From an uncultured Woeseiaceae bacterium (GTDB lineage Bacteria; Pseudomonadota; Gammaproteobacteria; Steroidobacterales; Woeseiaceae), in the NCBI GenBank assembly GCA_945787845.1, contig CALZJH010000002.1, positions 62,001 through 126,000 on the forward strand: DNA of 64,000 nt, read 5' to 3'. The translations under genes and the position numbers were made by a program. How positions within the stretch are numbered: the stretch's first letter is position 1; every line of letters begins with the position of its first letter. Shown piece by piece: positions 1-7,196 of this stretch. The notes beneath the pieces were generated by a model. It was not told the DNA's origin. It searched no databases and saw only the letters and a program-made list of their open reading frames with translations.

Positions 1-288
1 ACGGGCAAGATCGAAGAAAGCCGCACAATACGGCGCTTCTTCTCGCGCACGGGCCAGGCGCTCGCGCAGCCCTGGATGATCGAAATGGTCAAACGCATGT
101 TGCGTGGTCTGCCGATCGGAATGCTGACGCGTATGGGGCTTGCAACACTGGTCGCGCCTAAGACGAACGACTGGTGGCAAGCATCTGCTGCGATCCAGGA
201 TTACATTGACGAACAACACGAGAAACAGGTGCAGGCATTGAGTCTTGCCGAGTTGGTTGAAACAGCCAAACAAGACGTGGCTGCCTGA
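1..288 (+). CDS. HdrC-like (sHdr subunit C2-type) protein, 3' partial
   Basis: Frame 1 is open from base 1 (TGKIEESRTIRRFFSRTGQALAQPWM...) to the stop at 288; directly upstream of an HdrB-like gene, the usual C-B order. Confidence 0.6.
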   Translation, partial: TGKIEESRTIRRFFSRTGQALAQPWMIEMVKRMLRGLPIGMLTRMGLATLVAPKTNDWWQASAAIQDYIDEQHEKQVQALSLAELVETAKQDVAA

Positions 289-299
289 CGGGAACTTAG

Positions 300-1232
300 A
301 TGACTACCAAAGACAAGTACAAGAAGGTCGCTTACTACCCGGGCTGCGCGCTCGAGGGGTCCGGCCATTCTTATAATCGTTCCACCAAGGCTGTTGGCAA
401 GGCGCTGGGTCTCGATCTCGTTGAGGTCAAGAACTGGAATTGCTGTGGCGCGATGGAGGTCAAGAACATCGACCCCAAGATCCAGACCTATTTGTCGTCG
501 CGCGTGATGTCGACGGCAGCCAACGAAATGGATATGGACGTGGTCATGGCACCGTGCAACGGTTGCTACCACAACCTGAAGAAGGCCGAGTACGATCTCG
601 CCAACGACAAGGAGTCGGCGGACGTCGTTGATCGGTTGTCGAAGAAGGCCGGTCACAAAACCTACGAATCCGGACAGGTCGAAACGATTCACGCGCTCGA
701 CTGGATCAGGGAGTCGATTGGTGAAGAGGGACTCGCCGAGCGCGTCAAGAACTCCTTATCCGGCATCAAGGTTGCCAACTACTACGGCTGTATGTACACG
801 CGGCCGCGCCATATCTTCCCCGAGAAAGACCAGGGCCCGGGCAGTGAATCGACCTCGAAGCCGCATTTCATGGATGACCTGCTCGCTGCGGCGGGCGCTG
901 AAAATGTCGACTTTCCGCTCAAAACAGCCTGTTGCGGCGGCGCCCACACCTTATCCGACAGCGATACGTCAACGAAGCTCGTACTCAACATCCTGAAGGC
1001 GGCCAAGCTCTCCGGTGCAGACGTCATCGCCACGGAATGCCCCACCTGTCATTCGGGTCTCGAAATGCACCAGATACGTGCAGAGAAAACGCTGGGCGAA
1101 AAGGTCGATATCAAGATCCTGTATTTCACGCAACTTCTCGGCATGGCGCTGGGGCTGAAGGCGAGAAAAGTCGGCGTGCATGAAAACATTAGCGACTCGA
1201 TCAGGTTCCTCAAGGAAAAGGGGCTCGGATGA
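300..1232 (+). CDS. HdrB-like heterodisulfide reductase subunit B (sHdr B2-type)
   Basis: Two CCG-type cysteine motifs: YYPGC...NCCGA...CNGC and YYGC...ACCGG...CPTC. Confidence 0.85.
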   Translation: MTTKDKYKKVAYYPGCALEGSGHSYNRSTKAVGKALGLDLVEVKNWNCCGAMEVKNIDPKIQTYLSSRVMSTAANEMDMDVVMAPCNGCYHNLKKAEYDLANDKESADVVDRLSKKAGHKTYESGQVETIHALDWIRESIGEEGLAERVKNSLSGIKVANYYGCMYTRPRHIFPEKDQGPGSESTSKPHFMDDLLAAAGAENVDFPLKTACCGGAHTLSDSDTSTKLVLNILKAAKLSGADVIATECPTCHSGLEMHQIRAEKTLGEKVDIKILYFTQLLGMALGLKARKVGVHENISDSIRFLKEKGLG

Positions 1233-1657
1233 CGACGCTCGCCGAGCTTGAGTCGGTCTTCGATGAAGCTCCCACGACAGCGGATTCTCGGGCAGCGGCC
1301 GAGGAACTGTTGCGTGCCAGTGAGGAAGTGATCGAACACTGGATCATGGCGCGGGGGGAAATACCTACCGAAGAGACTCGCGAAGGCTTCCGCCTGCTGG
1401 CACTGCATCGGCAGGGGGCGAAAGGGGAACCGAGCTTCAATGCCTGTCGCGAGACCTGTCGCGAAGTCGTCTACCACTACAACCTGATCACGATGCAGCC
1501 CGAACATTCGGATATTACGGATCGCTTATATATGATGGGTTTGGTATCCAAGCACCTGTATTTATTCATCAGTGGGAAGCTGCAGGTGGCCGGGCTCGGC
1601 GAGTTTTGCTGTTCGTCGAAGCCGATCCGCTCCGCCACTGAGTCGCAACAACCATAG
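1229..1657 (+). CDS. Uncharacterised protein of the sHdr operon
   Basis: ATGA overlap with the hdrB-like stop, 17 bp before the lbpA-like gene; no family recognised; CRETC and terminal CC motifs. Confidence 0.7.
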   Translation: MTTLAELESVFDEAPTTADSRAAAEELLRASEEVIEHWIMARGEIPTEETREGFRLLALHRQGAKGEPSFNACRETCREVVYHYNLITMQPEHSDITDRLYMMGLVSKHLYLFISGKLQVAGLGEFCCSSKPIRSATESQQP

Positions 1658-1674
1658 ATTGAGGAGGCACAGGT

Positions 1675-2115
1675 ATGCCATCTGTAAGGGGATGTAACCT
1701 TCCTGACGAACTGCTTTACGATGTCGACAACCATATCTGGTTTACGGAGATGGGAGACGGCACGGTCAAGATCGGGATGACGGCGGTCGCCACCGCGATG
1801 GCCGGCAAGCTTGTTGCCTTCACACCCAAAAAGGTCGGACGCAGCGTTCGCGCAGGAAAGTCCTGCGGCACACTCGAGTCGGGCAAGTGGGTTGGACCTG
1901 CGAAGTCCCTGGCTGGCGGCGAAGTCGTCGCAGTGAACGATGACATGGTCGGCGATCCCAGCATCGCCAATGACGACCCGTACGAGAAGGGCTGGTTGCT
2001 CATCCTGAAGCCGGACGACTGGGACAGTGTCAAGGGTGCCCTGGTCACCGGAGACGGCATCGCGGCCCCGTACGAGGCCAAGATGGAATCCGAGGGCTTT
2101 GGTGGGTGCGAATGA
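1675..2115 (+). CDS. lbpA: LbpA, GcvH-like lipoate-binding protein of the sHdr pathway
   Basis: GcvH fold signature with predicted lipoyl lysine in GTLESGKWVGP; N-terminal VRGCNLPDELLYDVDNHIWF; adjacent to hdrCB-like genes. Confidence 0.85.
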   Translation: MPSVRGCNLPDELLYDVDNHIWFTEMGDGTVKIGMTAVATAMAGKLVAFTPKKVGRSVRAGKSCGTLESGKWVGPAKSLAGGEVVAVNDDMVGDPSIANDDPYEKGWLLILKPDDWDSVKGALVTGDGIAAPYEAKMESEGFGGCE

Positions 2116-2462
2116 GCACGGAAGAGACCGTGAACAACATCGGCGACTTCGACAAGCTCTCGGAGTTGCACGACAAGGCGTCACACGCCGTCGAGCTTCT
2201 CAAGGCGATGGCCAACGAATGGCGCCTGATGATTCTTTGCCAGCTGTCCGAAGGGGAGAAGACGGTCAGCGAGTTGCAGGAGATTCTCGGTCTCAGCCAG
2301 TCGGCGCTGTCACAGCATCTCGCGGTGTTGCGACGGGAAAAAATTGTTAAAGCCAGAAAGCATGCGCAGTCCGTCAGCTATTCGCTGGCCGGCGACGATG
2401 CGCCCAAGGTAATGCACACGCTACACGAAGTATTCTGCGAAACGCAGGGAGAAAAGAAATGA
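2112..2462 (+). CDS. ArsR-family HTH regulator, BigR/SqrR-like
   Basis: wHTH (SELQEILGLSQSALSQHLAVLRREKIV); Cys in LMILCQLSEGE and EVFCET, 66 residues apart; ATG overlaps the lbpA stop (ORF track begins at GTG 2106). Confidence 0.85.
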   Translation: MSTEETVNNIGDFDKLSELHDKASHAVELLKAMANEWRLMILCQLSEGEKTVSELQEILGLSQSALSQHLAVLRREKIVKARKHAQSVSYSLAGDDAPKVMHTLHEVFCETQGEKK

Positions 2463-3943
2463 GGTTCAAAGCTAGTAAGGTCACAGCGGCACTGGTGGCC
2501 ACGGGATTGTTCGCCTTCAGCAGTGCTGCGATGGCGACAAACGGTTATTTCACGCACGGTGTTGGCACGGCCTCCAAGGGTATGGCGGGTACGGGTGTCG
2601 GTTCGAATGCCGACATGGGCCCCATCATTAGCGCCTCCAATCCGGCGCTGGGTGTCTTTACGAGCGACAAGTGGGAGGCGGGCATTGCGGTTTTCAGTCC
2701 GCGGCGTAGCTATGAGGCAGGCCCGACCCAGCAGCCGTTTCCCGGCGCATTCATCGACCTCGGCGGTTGTGATCCAATAAATAGCCCGGAACTTTGCTTG
2801 CCATCGCACACGCTCAGCGAGGGCAAGATCGACAGCAGCAGCGAGTATTTCCCGATTCCCTATGTTGCCAAGAACTGGAGCCTCGAAGGCGATGCCAACG
2901 TTACCGCAGTTTTCTATGGCCGCGGCGGCATGAACACGAACTGGGATGATCCGAATGCAGGAGCGACGTCCTATTTCTGCGGCGGCGGTGACCCTCTGAC
3001 AGGACTGCCAAACTCCGGTACCGGCCCCTACTGCGCGGATCGGACCAGCAGCACGGGCGGTGTGGCCGGCGTCAACCTGATGCAGGCTTTCATCGCGGTC
3101 AATTACTCGAATATGGTGAATGAAAACTTTGCCTGGGGCGCTGGACCGGTGTTTGCCGTCCAGTTGTTTGAGGCCAAGGGTGTCCAGACGTTTGCGCCTA
3201 TCACGAAGTCCTTCGTACAGGACGGCGTCTTTCCGTCAACGGCGCTGTCGAATAACGATGCAGACACCTCTTTCGGCTTTGGCTTTGCCGCCGGCCTTTG
3301 GTGGGGCATCACGGACACGGTTAGCCTCGGTCTTGCGTACCAGTCCAGGATGTACATGGGCGAGTTCGACGATTATGCGGACCTGTTTGCCGAAGCCGGA
3401 GATTTCGACATCCCGTCCAGCATTAAGGTCGGGCTGTCGTTCAAGGCCAGCGATCAGCTGCGTGTCAATTTCGACATCGAGCACACAGCGTTTGGCGAAG
3501 TAGATTCCATCGCTAATCCGATGTCGAATATGCTTGGCTGCCCGGGTTTGCCGCTCGGTGGCACGGACGTCGAGAGCTGCCTTGGTGGCGAAAACGGTGC
3601 CGGTTTCGGCTGGGAAGACATGACCACTTACAAGCTGGGCTTCGAGTGGGCGCAGAACGAAACCAACACCTGGCGCTTCGGCTATAGCTACGGCGAGCAG
3701 CCGATCCAGGCAGCGGACGTGCTGTTCAATATCCTGGCGCCGGGCGTCATGGAGCAGCACATCACGTTCGGTCTTACGCGCCAGATGGATAGTGGCGGTG
3801 AGTTGAGCTTCTCGTTCATGTACGCGCCGGAAAATTCGGTGACCGGTGGGAGTTTCTTCGATCCGGGTCCCGACTTCATTTCACCACAGTTGATCGAACT
3901 GACGATGAGCCAGCTCGAGTTCGAAGTTGCTTATCGCTTCTAG
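2459..3943 (+). CDS. FadL/OmpP1-family outer-membrane transport protein
   Basis: Signal peptide, mature N-terminus ATNGYFTHGVGTASKGMAGTGVG typical of FadL-like proteins, C-terminal beta-barrel ending in YRF. Confidence 0.85.
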   Translation: MRFKASKVTAALVATGLFAFSSAAMATNGYFTHGVGTASKGMAGTGVGSNADMGPIISASNPALGVFTSDKWEAGIAVFSPRRSYEAGPTQQPFPGAFIDLGGCDPINSPELCLPSHTLSEGKIDSSSEYFPIPYVAKNWSLEGDANVTAVFYGRGGMNTNWDDPNAGATSYFCGGGDPLTGLPNSGTGPYCADRTSSTGGVAGVNLMQAFIAVNYSNMVNENFAWGAGPVFAVQLFEAKGVQTFAPITKSFVQDGVFPSTALSNNDADTSFGFGFAAGLWWGITDTVSLGLAYQSRMYMGEFDDYADLFAEAGDFDIPSSIKVGLSFKASDQLRVNFDIEHTAFGEVDSIANPMSNMLGCPGLPLGGTDVESCLGGENGAGFGWEDMTTYKLGFEWAQNETNTWRFGYSYGEQPIQAADVLFNILAPGVMEQHITFGLTRQMDSGGELSFSFMYAPENSVTGGSFFDPGPDFISPQLIELTMSQLEFEVAYRF

Positions 3944-3949
3944 GAGTAC

Positions 3950-4981
3950 ATGATGAAGGCCAGGATGTTAATGGCCGTAATCACGATTGCGGCGCTGGTT
4001 TCAGCGCCGTTTTCGTTTGCGGCGGATGACGAGATCGGTATTTTCGAGGCGTTGCGCGCCTCGTCAGTATCATTTGAAGAAACGACGGCAGCACTGGACG
4101 CGGCGTTTGCGGTTTCAGGACTGGTGTTGCATGCGACACATGATGTACGGGTTCCCGAGGATAAGCACCGGGCCCGTGTCTACGTGCTGACGTCGCCGGC
4201 GTTTGCCGAGGCGGCCAGCGAGGAATCGGCGCGCACGATTTCGGCGCAGATTCTGCGTGTCGCGGTTTACACGCGAGGTGACGATCAGGCTACGTACATC
4301 AACATGGCGAATCCGGTCGCACATGCCATGGTGTTCTACGCCGATTCGCCCAACTACGATACGCTGCTTACGGCCGCGGCCGAAGCCTCCGGCGAAATCC
4401 GCGAAGCGGTCTCGGCCGTGCCCGGTGAGGCATTGTGGGAACAGCAGGAGCCGAGGCGGGCGGAAAAGCATTATCGCGCGTTCAAGGGAGACGGTCCTGC
4501 GCGGATGATGGCGAAGTTCCGGACCTTCAGGAAAAGCCAGCTTGAGATTATCGAAGACACGGCTGACAATTTCGATGCGGTCGTCGACAAGGTAACGGCG
4601 GCATTGTCCGCACGCGAAGTCGCAGCGGCGGACGAGTCCGAGGGCTGGGAACAGCTTACGCTGGTTCGGGTGCGTGACGATGCAATCTATATCGGCGTGA
4701 CGAATCCGTATATCGAGGACAAGATGGTTCGAATCAACTCCCGGTTCCGCAAGGATGGCAAGAGCGAGTTGTCGCCTTATCCCGGCGTCGATCACGTCGC
4801 CGCATTGCCGGCCGAGATCCTGATCGTCAAGGACGGCGACGAAACCAGGGTCCTGCACTACGGACAGATGTGGCGCATGCAGCTGTATTTCTGGGATTCG
4901 GGTTACCGGGCGTTCACTGCCAATGTGGGCGTGCCGAGTACGATAGCCAATTCGATTGATGACACGGTCAATCCGGATTAG
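3950..4981 (+). CDS. Exported uncharacterised protein, possibly two DUF302-like repeats
   Basis: Signal peptide (MLMAVITIAALVSAPFSFAA); two internally similar halves of the form F(E/D)xx(T/V)xx(L/V)xxA. Confidence 0.5.
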   Translation: MMKARMLMAVITIAALVSAPFSFAADDEIGIFEALRASSVSFEETTAALDAAFAVSGLVLHATHDVRVPEDKHRARVYVLTSPAFAEAASEESARTISAQILRVAVYTRGDDQATYINMANPVAHAMVFYADSPNYDTLLTAAAEASGEIREAVSAVPGEALWEQQEPRRAEKHYRAFKGDGPARMMAKFRTFRKSQLEIIEDTADNFDAVVDKVTAALSAREVAAADESEGWEQLTLVRVRDDAIYIGVTNPYIEDKMVRINSRFRKDGKSELSPYPGVDHVAALPAEILIVKDGDETRVLHYGQMWRMQLYFWDSGYRAFTANVGVPSTIANSIDDTVNPD

Positions 4982-5002
4982 GTAAAAACAGGCATAATAT
5001 AG

Positions 5003-5053
5003 CCGGGAACGACAGGCCTGCTGCGCGCCAGTGGGCTTGTCGTTCCCGGTTTT
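5003..5053 (+). terminator. Rho-independent terminator
   Basis: ccgggaacgacaggcct / gggcttgtcgttcccgg arms (about 16 bp stem) followed by TTTT. Confidence 0.85.
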
Positions 5054-5089: not shown

Positions 5090-6796
5090 ATGAGCAAGGC
5101 GAAGCTCGATCCCGTATACCTGCGTCAACAGATCGTTGGCGTCGATTCGACATTTGAGACGCCATTCGGCGAACGTCTCATGGTTTATTGCGACTACACG
5201 GCATCAGGGCGTTGCCTGCGCTTTGTCGAGTCCTACCTGCAGAGCCTGCAGCGCGTCTATGCCAATACGCATACCGAAGACGATATCACCGGGCGCAGCA
5301 TGAGCCAGTTGCTGCATGAAGCCGAGGAGGCGATCAAGCGATCAGTTAACGCGGGCCCCGAAGGACGAATAATCGCCTGTGGTACCGGCGCGACAGGGGC
5401 CATCGACAAGCTGCAGCAGATCATCGGCGTGACGCTGGCGCCGGCAACGCGCAAGAACCTGCGTGACTCGCTGGATGACGAGAAACTGTCCAAAACGCAG
5501 CCGGTCGTTTTCATCGGTCCCTATGAACATCATTCAAACGAGATTTCCTGGCGGCAATCGCTGGCCACCACAATACAGGTGCGCCTGGATGCGGGGGGCA
5601 ACGTCGACCTGGCCCATCTCGAATCATTGCTGCAGGATCCACGCTACCAAGGCCGTCAGCGCATTGGTTCGTTCTCGGCCGCCTCGAACGTCACCGGTAT
5701 ACGGGCGGATGTTCGGAGGATCGCCAGTCTGCTGCACAAGTATGACGCGATCGCCTGCTTCGACTACGCGGCGTGCGCGCCGTATGTGCCGATCGACATG
5801 AACCCTGCGCCCGAATCAGCGGGGGACGACCCAAGTATCGATGCCATTTTCATATCCCCTCACAAGTTTCTTGGGGGCCCGGGGTCGAGTGGTGTGCTGG
5901 TCTTCAATGAACGTATCTACGATCGTGAGTTGCCGCCCAGCATGAGTGCCGGCGGGACTGTCGATTACGTCGGGATGACTGACCAGGATTTTATTTCAAG
6001 CATCGAAGAACGCGAGAAAGCCGGCACGCCCGGCGTATTGCAGACGCTCAAGGCCGGTCTTGTCTTCCAGATCAAGGATGCGGTTGGCACCGATGTAATT
6101 AACAAGCGTGAGCATGAGTTCACCGACCGCGCCCTGCGGAGCTGGGGCGAGAACAGCGACATCGAAATTCTTGGGAACCCGGACCCCGGGAGCCGCGTCG
6201 GAATTATCTCGTTTAATATCAAGAATGCGAACGGTAAGTACCTGCATCACAAATTTCTTACGGTGCTCCTCAACGACCTGTTCGGCATTCAGTCGCGCGC
6301 GGGATGTTCCTGCGCCGGGCCGTATGGCCATCGTCTGTTGGATATCGATATTGCTACATCCGAAAAATACCGCGCCGCGGTGCAGCAGGGCCATTGCGGC
6401 CTGAAACCCGGTTGGTGTCGCGTGGGTCTGCACTGGGTCATGGACGATGCGGAAGCAAACTATGTCATCGATGCTGTGAATTTTCTCGCGCGCGAGGGTC
6501 ACCACTTCCTGAGTCTCTATGACTTCGACCTTGCGACCGGAACCTGGGTGCACAAGTATACGGCGGGTCAGCTACCCGAGTTCTCTCTCGAGCAGGCGCT
6601 GAACATTGAAGAGGGTGAGGCAGCAACGCTTTCGCTGCCGTTGCGTCAGCAGCTCTATCGTCACTACATGACCGAGGCACAGAAAATCGCCGACCGGCTT
6701 AGAAACGAGCCGGAGGCGAAGCTTGCGTCGCTAGGCGGCGACCTCGGTGAGTTGCAGTTCTTTGCGATGCCCGAGGACGAGCGCCAGCCGCACTGA
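5090..6796 (+). CDS. Class-V aminotransferase-fold PLP enzyme (cysteine desulfurase-like)
   Basis: PLP-lysine motif FISPHKFLGGPGSSGVLVF; SRAGCSCAGPYG motif; ~570 aa. Confidence 0.75.
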   Translation: MSKAKLDPVYLRQQIVGVDSTFETPFGERLMVYCDYTASGRCLRFVESYLQSLQRVYANTHTEDDITGRSMSQLLHEAEEAIKRSVNAGPEGRIIACGTGATGAIDKLQQIIGVTLAPATRKNLRDSLDDEKLSKTQPVVFIGPYEHHSNEISWRQSLATTIQVRLDAGGNVDLAHLESLLQDPRYQGRQRIGSFSAASNVTGIRADVRRIASLLHKYDAIACFDYAACAPYVPIDMNPAPESAGDDPSIDAIFISPHKFLGGPGSSGVLVFNERIYDRELPPSMSAGGTVDYVGMTDQDFISSIEEREKAGTPGVLQTLKAGLVFQIKDAVGTDVINKREHEFTDRALRSWGENSDIEILGNPDPGSRVGIISFNIKNANGKYLHHKFLTVLLNDLFGIQSRAGCSCAGPYGHRLLDIDIATSEKYRAAVQQGHCGLKPGWCRVGLHWVMDDAEANYVIDAVNFLAREGHHFLSLYDFDLATGTWVHKYTAGQLPEFSLEQALNIEEGEAATLSLPLRQQLYRHYMTEAQKIADRLRNEPEAKLASLGGDLGELQFFAMPEDERQPH

Positions 6797-6797
6797 G

Positions 6798-7196
6798 CTA
6801 GTTGTTCTTCGCGCCCTGGTCGATCCAGAGTCCAATCAATTCGATCGTCTCGGCCGAAAGCATCACGCCGCGGCCCTCAGCGAAAGACTCGTCGTTATGC
6901 GGTGGCATTCGAATTTCCGGTGCCGTCTTGCCGGCGACGACCAGGTACAACGCACTCGACATCCTGCTGCCCGGAACCACGACTCTGCCGTGGGCCGTAC
7001 CTTTCATCACGTTGTTGTAGTCGGTCATCAGGTACGCGCTCACCGTAGCGCCTTCGCCGGATTCACTGTGACAACTGACGCAGTGTTTCTGAAAGACAGG
7101 GTCAATGTCGTCGGCGAAGCTGACTTCGCCCTTGCCGCATCCGCTCAGCACGACAGCCGGCACGAGCAGCAGCACAAGTCGCAGCATGGATTTCAT
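6798..7196 (-). CDS. Predicted c-type cytochrome lipoprotein
   Basis: Lipobox VVLSGC and a single haem motif CVSCH. Confidence 0.75.
   Translation of the reverse strand: MKSMLRLVLLLVPAVVLSGCGKGEVSFADDIDPVFQKHCVSCHSESGEGATVSAYLMTDYNNVMKGTAHGRVVVPGSRMSSALYLVVAGKTAPEIRMPPHNDESFAEGRGVMLSAETIELIGLWIDQGAKNN

Follow-up and report, generated by a model that had tools for sequence, protein, structure and literature searches.

The 64,000-nucleotide stretch analysed here (the window) is contig CALZJH010000002.1 (C2:62001–126000) of a 3.68-Mb, 99.8% complete genome from an uncultured Woeseiaceae bacterium. By gene content and order, it opens with the last genes of a complete sulfur-oxidation operon of the sHdr/LbpA kind, in which a two-cysteine ArsR-type regulator is followed by a FadL-type outer-membrane channel and an exported protein with a predicted tandem DUF302 fold. 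Genes and genome comparison, drawn from metagenome-assembled genome (MAG) data, show this FadL–DUF302 pair (the cassette) as a recurrent accessory of gammaproteobacterial sulfur oxidation across engines, namely two sHdr architectures, Sox, TusA/DsrE2 and a persulfide-dioxygenase-like (PDO-like) context. The best explanation of the whole, to which we give a probability of just under 0.6, is that the cassette behind the two-cysteine ArsR is an entry for zero-valent sulfur that feeds sHdr.

Window positions 1–4981 are the 3' end of a co-directional 17-gene, 15.3-kb run that starts ~10 kb upstream of the window. Because all 17 genes share one direction and the largest gap between them is 50 bp, they very probably make up a single operon. 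In the upstream flank (L003, whose positions minus 18000 give window positions), the run begins with an HDAC-like gene and continues through LipS2, LipS1, sLpl(AB), a LipX-like amidotransferase, DsrE3 and sHdrC1, B1, A, Hyp and C2, and on the divergent side, across 95 bp, stand DsrE2, TusA, YeiH and a molybdopterin sulfite-dehydrogenase-like gene. The traits that define sHdr Group I (PMC6067878) were all found: the gene order shdrC1-B1-A-hyp-C2-B2, a linked LbpA with its lipoyl lysine (K71), and dedicated slpl, lipS1 and lipS2 within the same operon. The sHdrB2 protein is 66–69% identical to B2 from other sHdr loci, and its closest named relatives are from Woeseiaceae, 'Chromatiales' and 'Gammaproteobacteria' MAGs, by which the genome was assigned to Woeseiaceae. 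A methanogen-type Hdr was ruled out, the upstream genes being bacterial sHdr plus lipoate assembly. An earlier sequence-only reading of this DNA had proposed the sHdr–LbpA identity and named archaeal, methanogenesis-like or unrelated upstream genes as the outcome that would speak against it; the upstream shdrC1-B1-A-hyp-C2, dsrE3, slpl, lipS1/S2 and lipX bear the identity out. No SoxB was found in this genome (best match 51 bits, against at least 900 for true SoxB in congeners). The features at this end of the window are:

1..288, + strand: C-terminal part of sHdrC2, with 4Fe-4S domains; the gene starts in the upstream flank at L003:17521
300..1232, + strand: sHdrB2, a CCG-domain heterodisulfide-reductase-like subunit (CCG 2.7e-24)
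1229..1657, + strand: ORF X, conserved, all-helical in the model, four cysteines, no Pfam or significant fold match
1675..2115, + strand: LbpA, lipoate-binding protein (GCV_H), lipoyl lysine K71 in LESGKWVGP
2112..2462, + strand: ArsR-type repressor (HTH_5), Cys43/Cys109
2459..3943, + strand: FadL/TodX-type outer-membrane channel (PF03349), signal peptide, N-terminal NPA motif
3950..4981, + strand: secreted protein of 343 aa with a predicted tandem DUF302 fold, the partner of FadL
5001..5051, + strand: intrinsic terminator, a hairpin followed by TTTT, by folding
5084/5090..6796, + strand: SufS-like class-V aminotransferase, 570 aa, with pyridoxal-phosphate (PLP) lysine K261 and Cys408/Cys410 kept

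The seven consecutive genes lie where the sequence-only reading had placed them, with ATGA overlaps at 1229, 2112 and 2459 and remaining gaps of 11, 17 and 6 bp, within the 17 bp it had allowed; the exported protein, given as 344 aa, measures 343 aa. Pfam matches above cut-off were CCG, GCV_H, HTH_5 (ArsR) and Toluene_X (FadL), and the Pfam scan returned no match for ORF X or the exported protein (E 0.001).

Within the family, FadL follows sHdr closely. When 61 congeners were divided by the presence of an sHdrHyp match, FadL was found in 23/23 sHdr-positive genomes (one counted from 90 bp at a contig edge) and in 8/38 sHdr-negative ones (Fisher p 3e-10, with kinship uncorrected in these counts). 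Wherever a Woeseiaceae contig continues beyond ArsR (21 contigs), FadL is the very next gene, and the exported protein follows it in 17 of these contigs.

Some sHdr-negative congeners carry the same genes beside other oxidation machinery. In G014 and G017, a SoxC-D-X-Y-Z-A-(103 aa)-B cluster is flanked by FadL–ArsR at one end and by the exported-protein gene at the other; SoxY, SoxZ and SoxA were called by Pfam, and SoxC/D/X/B from domains and gene order. The G028 locus comprises SufS, a thioredoxin-like gene, a DUF302 gene, FadL, ArsR and a metallo-beta-lactamase gene, and the sequence and neighbours of the latter suggest a PDO-like enzyme. In the FadL tree the G014 protein is basal, and those of G017 and G028 fall within the sHdr-linked clade, beside the window's, with support of 98/97 and 99/89 at the enclosing forks; from this nesting, one channel lineage therefore appears to change its oxidation engine within one genus.

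The pairing extends well beyond the family. A profile of the exported-protein family matched 87/370 gammaproteobacterial genomes and few genomes elsewhere in the phylum. At least 41 of the 101 near-full-length matches, in 41 genomes, lie directly 3' of a same-strand FadL, where ~0.04 would be expected by chance, and 30 of these 41 genomes have no sHdrHyp match. The closest FadLs outside Woeseiaceae adjoin DsrE2/TusA, Sox, rhodanese, YeeE/SoxT, ArsR or LipS genes. For 20 further cassettes picked blind to their neighbours, single-sequence searches detected TusA, DsrE2 or Sox within ~8 kb in 14, against 1/20 control windows, most of them from the same genomes (Fisher p 4e-5, kinship uncorrected); four of the six cassettes lacking such neighbours (L223, L226, L229 and L230) end early at contig ends. 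The common factor of the cassette contexts is sulfane-sulfur oxidation. The idea of outer-membrane sulfur entry gains independent support from these contexts, because FadL and its exported partner recur with Sox, TusA/DsrE2 and PDO-like genes too.

The channel itself matched PF03349 with 48.4 bits against a curated cut-off of 29.7, and it is the only match to this family found in the genome. The N-terminal NPA motif and two late cysteines (mature positions 336 and 349) are each kept in 22/22 Woeseiaceae orthologues. Its nearest solved relatives are TodX (best) and CymD, and similarity to E. coli FadL was not significant. TodX is a toluene uptake channel, and FadL-family channels pass hydrophobic small molecules; S8 is hydrophobic.

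The partner, which the sequence-only reading had left as an exported protein of unknown kind, is still read as exported, and can now be described as a secreted, cysteine-free protein with a predicted tandem DUF302 fold. The AlphaFold model (pLDDT 80.5, pTM 0.82) has two successive repeats of one alpha/beta unit, and the top Foldseek match in the PDB was the DUF302 structure 1q9u (probability 1.00, E 6.6e-4, TM score 0.74 on the target), followed, one implausible match aside, by TT1751 (1j3m) and 7tj1. The Pfam DUF302 profile (PF03625) gave no match at E 0.001, and a profile of the exported protein found nothing significant among PDB sequences. Because the Pfam profile fails at the sequence level, we call this a DUF302-fold protein on the strength of its model and not a member by profile. 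Distant homologues, exported proteins of ~305 aa, lie directly 3' of FadL in other families. When a profile of these was run against 9,729 ORFs, its best outside matches were in the Woeseiaceae family (E 2e-6; reciprocal 6e-4), and the two profiles align over their full length at 20% identity. Cysteine is absent from the mature protein in 23/24 orthologues, which makes a covalent persulfide carrier role unlikely.

The regulator ahead of FadL has Cys43 and Cys109, whose spacing of 66 equals that of Cys50/Cys116 in the sHdrR of Hyphomicrobium denitrificans (PMC12423496); two-cysteine regulators were rare near shdr genes in the published survey (PMC12423496). Both cysteines are present in the nine ArsR proteins behind LbpA that were checked in other taxa (L104, L105, L110, L118, L119, L128, L134, L154 and L157). 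An operator search of the divergent 95-bp intergenic region returned one weak inverted repeat (10 nt, 90%).

These results fit a model in which zero-valent sulfur in hydrophobic form (S8 or polysulfanes, perhaps also small organic polysulfides) would diffuse through the outer membrane by way of FadL, and the cysteine-free DUF302 protein would take up or solubilise it in the periplasm by non-covalent binding. A YeeE/SoxT-type inner-membrane importer encoded elsewhere would then deliver sulfane sulfur to TusA/DsrE, from which it would reach sHdr for oxidation to sulfite with LbpA as the lipoate carrier. Incoming sulfane sulfur would also release the ArsR repressor, so that uptake and oxidation are switched on together. 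A candidate for the inner-membrane importer is a YeeE/YedE-family transporter split into two adjacent genes outside the operon (G000:C4:10859-12069). The sequence-only reading had spoken of a complete uptake-to-oxidation module; its idea of outer-membrane entry gained support, and the word complete went too far, the operon having no inner-membrane importer and some congeners lacking the exported protein. The wider claim, that FadL and the tandem DUF302 protein form a dedicated entry system for zero-valent sulfur (S8/polysulfanes), interchangeable among sHdr, Sox and other engines in Gammaproteobacteria and supplying the missing outer-membrane step, we put forward tentatively, at somewhat under even odds.

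Several observations weigh against a sulfur-entry role. The DUF302 protein is not beside FadL in 4/21 Woeseiaceae loci (L024, L058, L070 and L072). The same sHdr architecture as far as OrfX–LbpA, often with ArsR, occurs in Lysobacterales, Alpha- and Betaproteobacteria, and FadL was found in none of 21 such loci with at least 8 kb 3' of LbpA; given this absence, FadL is not needed for sHdr as such. In part of a second sHdr type, FadL stands beside lipoate-assembly genes and is then followed by an LplA-like ligase, a setting that favours a role in lipoate supply. Channels of the FadL family mostly carry fatty acids or hydrocarbons, and literature searches on FadL with elemental or zero-valent sulfur found no paper with S8 as a substrate. 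The linkage to LbpA that the sequence-only reading expected to be conserved thus holds throughout Woeseiaceae and, in another position, in 9/16 loci of the second type, and fails in the 21 loci of the same type.

The second type bears on the main rival, in which FadL would be a LipY-type importer of free octanoate or lipoate for the lipoylation of LbpA by sLpl(AB)–LipS1/S2. In this gammaproteobacterial architecture (TusA-DsrE2-C1 ... LbpA1-DsrE3-LbpA2-LipS2-Lpl-LipS1), a co-directional FadL follows LipS1 within ~0.5 kb in 9/16 loci with room, and in five of its FadL loci a homologue of the window's exported protein comes next. Tanabe et al. 2023 (PMC10332631) place lipY in a lipoate-assembly cluster, labelled in the legend only as a 'putative fatty acid transporter', and report that octanoate and lipoate in free form are the only substrates of sLpl(AB). 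An LplA-like ligase lies behind FadL and DUF302 genes in three sHdr loci of other families (L026:18145, L034:13647 and L042:17849), perhaps the sign of a cassette variant that truly scavenges lipoate. However, exclusive occurrence with lipoate-assembly genes, as expected of a LipY-type accessory, is not what we found: lipoate genes were not seen at the Sox- or PDO-like-linked FadL loci of G014, G017 and G028, which include the window's own channel lineage, and sHdr was not detected in most FadL–DUF302 genomes. Moreover, 9/11 second-type FadLs form a separate, distant clade, while two group with the window's wider clade, and the other loci of the window's sHdr type have slpl/lipS1/lipS2 yet no FadL. 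We therefore consider the LipY explanation unlikely for the window, and it remains the main rival chiefly for other sHdr loci. A lipoate-only role for FadL in this genus is unlikely given the Sox- and PDO-linked relatives.

A slightly less probable alternative is that the cassette imports hydrophobic organosulfur compounds, such as organic polysulfanes or dimethyl disulfide, and that sHdr or Sox then oxidises the sulfur they contain. In some organisms, volatile organic sulfur compounds are connected with the sHdr route (PMC6067878), and the kinship of the channel with TodX/CymD-type small-molecule channels would suit such substrates, but neither the operon nor the inspected neighbourhoods showed a recognisable enzyme for cleaving organosulfur, and small volatile compounds may need no channel. 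Still more doubtful is a role of FadL–DUF302 in envelope sulfur stress, sulfur-damaged lipids or sulfur export. Efflux pumps and detoxification genes are among the targets of two-cysteine ArsR proteins of this group (PMC12423496), and in G028 the cassette adjoins the PDO-like gene; however, in this genome an oxidation operon ends with the cassette. Its nearest solved relative is, moreover, a channel for uptake. Chance hitch-hiking of a generic FadL gene is very improbable: FadL genes are common (139/370 class genomes), but this is the sole FadL of its Pfam family found in the genome, it holds its place in every family contig that reaches it, and it recurs together with the DUF302 protein and with sulfur engines of four kinds.

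Beyond the cassette, the terminator has an unbroken 23-bp stem (-42.9 kcal/mol, z -5.5), so the strong terminator of the sequence-only reading stood, with its position moved from 5003–5053 to 5001–5051. As the end of the operon it holds in this genome only: it is not the end of the conserved cluster, because the SufS-like gene beyond it is a conserved neighbour, which in many congeners overlaps the last cassette gene or lies no more than 63 bp from it. This SufS-like protein (570–580 aa) has the PLP lysine and, at the position of the active site, a Cys-x-Cys. Its gene is conserved next to sHdr loci, on the same strand behind the cassette in Woeseiaceae and on the other strand, adjoining LbpA, in Lysobacterales and related MAGs (L108, L114, L123, L126, L132 and L140 outside the window); the protein may be a dedicated donor of sulfur to lipoyl or sulfur relay. 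At L024/L084 (G239) there is no exported protein, and several kilobases of other sequence lie between FadL and the SufS-like gene, which suggests insertion or replacement. Next to the SufS-like gene, at window positions 6798–7196 on the opposite strand, is a gene for a small exported protein matching PSCyt1 (Planctomycete cytochrome C), which also adjoins it in several close relatives.

Across Gamma-, Alpha- and Betaproteobacteria, nearly every locus of this sHdr type (L078–L157) has ORF X placed between shdrB2 and lbpA, and Cys73, Cys77, Cys127 and Cys128 of the protein are invariant or nearly so. A fold search with its all-helical model was uninformative (best matches E 0.1, TM score ~0.5). 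As far as could be found, it is an undescribed sHdr component. In L116 and L130 the operon is interrupted by ~6 kb of other sequence that separates ORF X from LbpA. The HDAC-like (AcuC-type) first gene of the operon (L003:7727-8830) is kept in Woeseiaceae and several other taxa. One further sHdr operon, L141 (CAMDRJ010000125.1), is on a contig labelled as a Klebsiella pneumoniae MAG, almost certainly a mislabelled or contaminant sequence.

The passage of poorly soluble sulfur across the outer membrane is an open step in sulfur oxidisers, for which the cassette is a specific candidate, and a paper on inner-membrane import by SoxT does not discuss the outer membrane. The cassette keeps its identity while the adjoining oxidation machinery changes. 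Woeseiaceae occur widely in marine sediments, and sHdr and Sox have already been reported in Woeseiales MAGs from there (PMC12345210); an uptake step would therefore bear on who consumes zero-valent sulfur in sediments. The parts are already known singly, namely sHdr–LbpA, ArsR control, FadL channels and DUF302 near sox (PMC6067878, PMC12423496, PMC5037610). What appears new is the FadL–tandem DUF302 cassette as a recurrent, engine-independent sulfur accessory: no paper on this pairing in sulfur oxidation was found in the literature searched, subscription literature lying outside the search.

Among known systems, the operon most resembles the sHdr–LbpA Group I clusters of Hyphomicrobium denitrificans and Thioalkalivibrio, sharing co-directional shdrC1-B1-A-hyp-C2-B2, lbpA, dsrE, slpl, lipS1, lipS2 and lipX and the lipoyl lysine, but here FadL and the tandem DUF302 protein are added behind a two-cysteine ArsR, and ORF X is placed between B2 and LbpA; no lipT was recognised in this genome's sHdr operon. 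The regulator is like the sulfane-sulfur repressors sHdrR, SoxR and BigR in belonging to the ArsR family and having two cysteines 66 residues apart, whereas here it is encoded inside the shdr operon. The channel shares with the FadL/TodX family (PF03349; TodX, CymD) its above-cut-off profile match, NPA motif and signal peptide, and differs from TodX and CymD in standing in a sulfur-oxidation operon and in its two conserved late cysteines. The partner resembles DUF302 proteins (PF03625; 1q9u, TT1751/1j3m) in fold, but it is a secreted, FadL-paired tandem repeat of ~340 aa with no Pfam sequence match; a DUF302 gene in the sox cluster of Thermithiobacillus was noted earlier (PMC5037610). Finally, the lipY clusters of sLpl(AB)–LipS1/S2 lipoate assembly (Tanabe et al. 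2023) also link a gene for a putative fatty-acid-type transporter to sHdr and lipoate genes, whereas here FadL follows arsR instead of lipS1, and its lineage also stands beside Sox or PDO-like genes.

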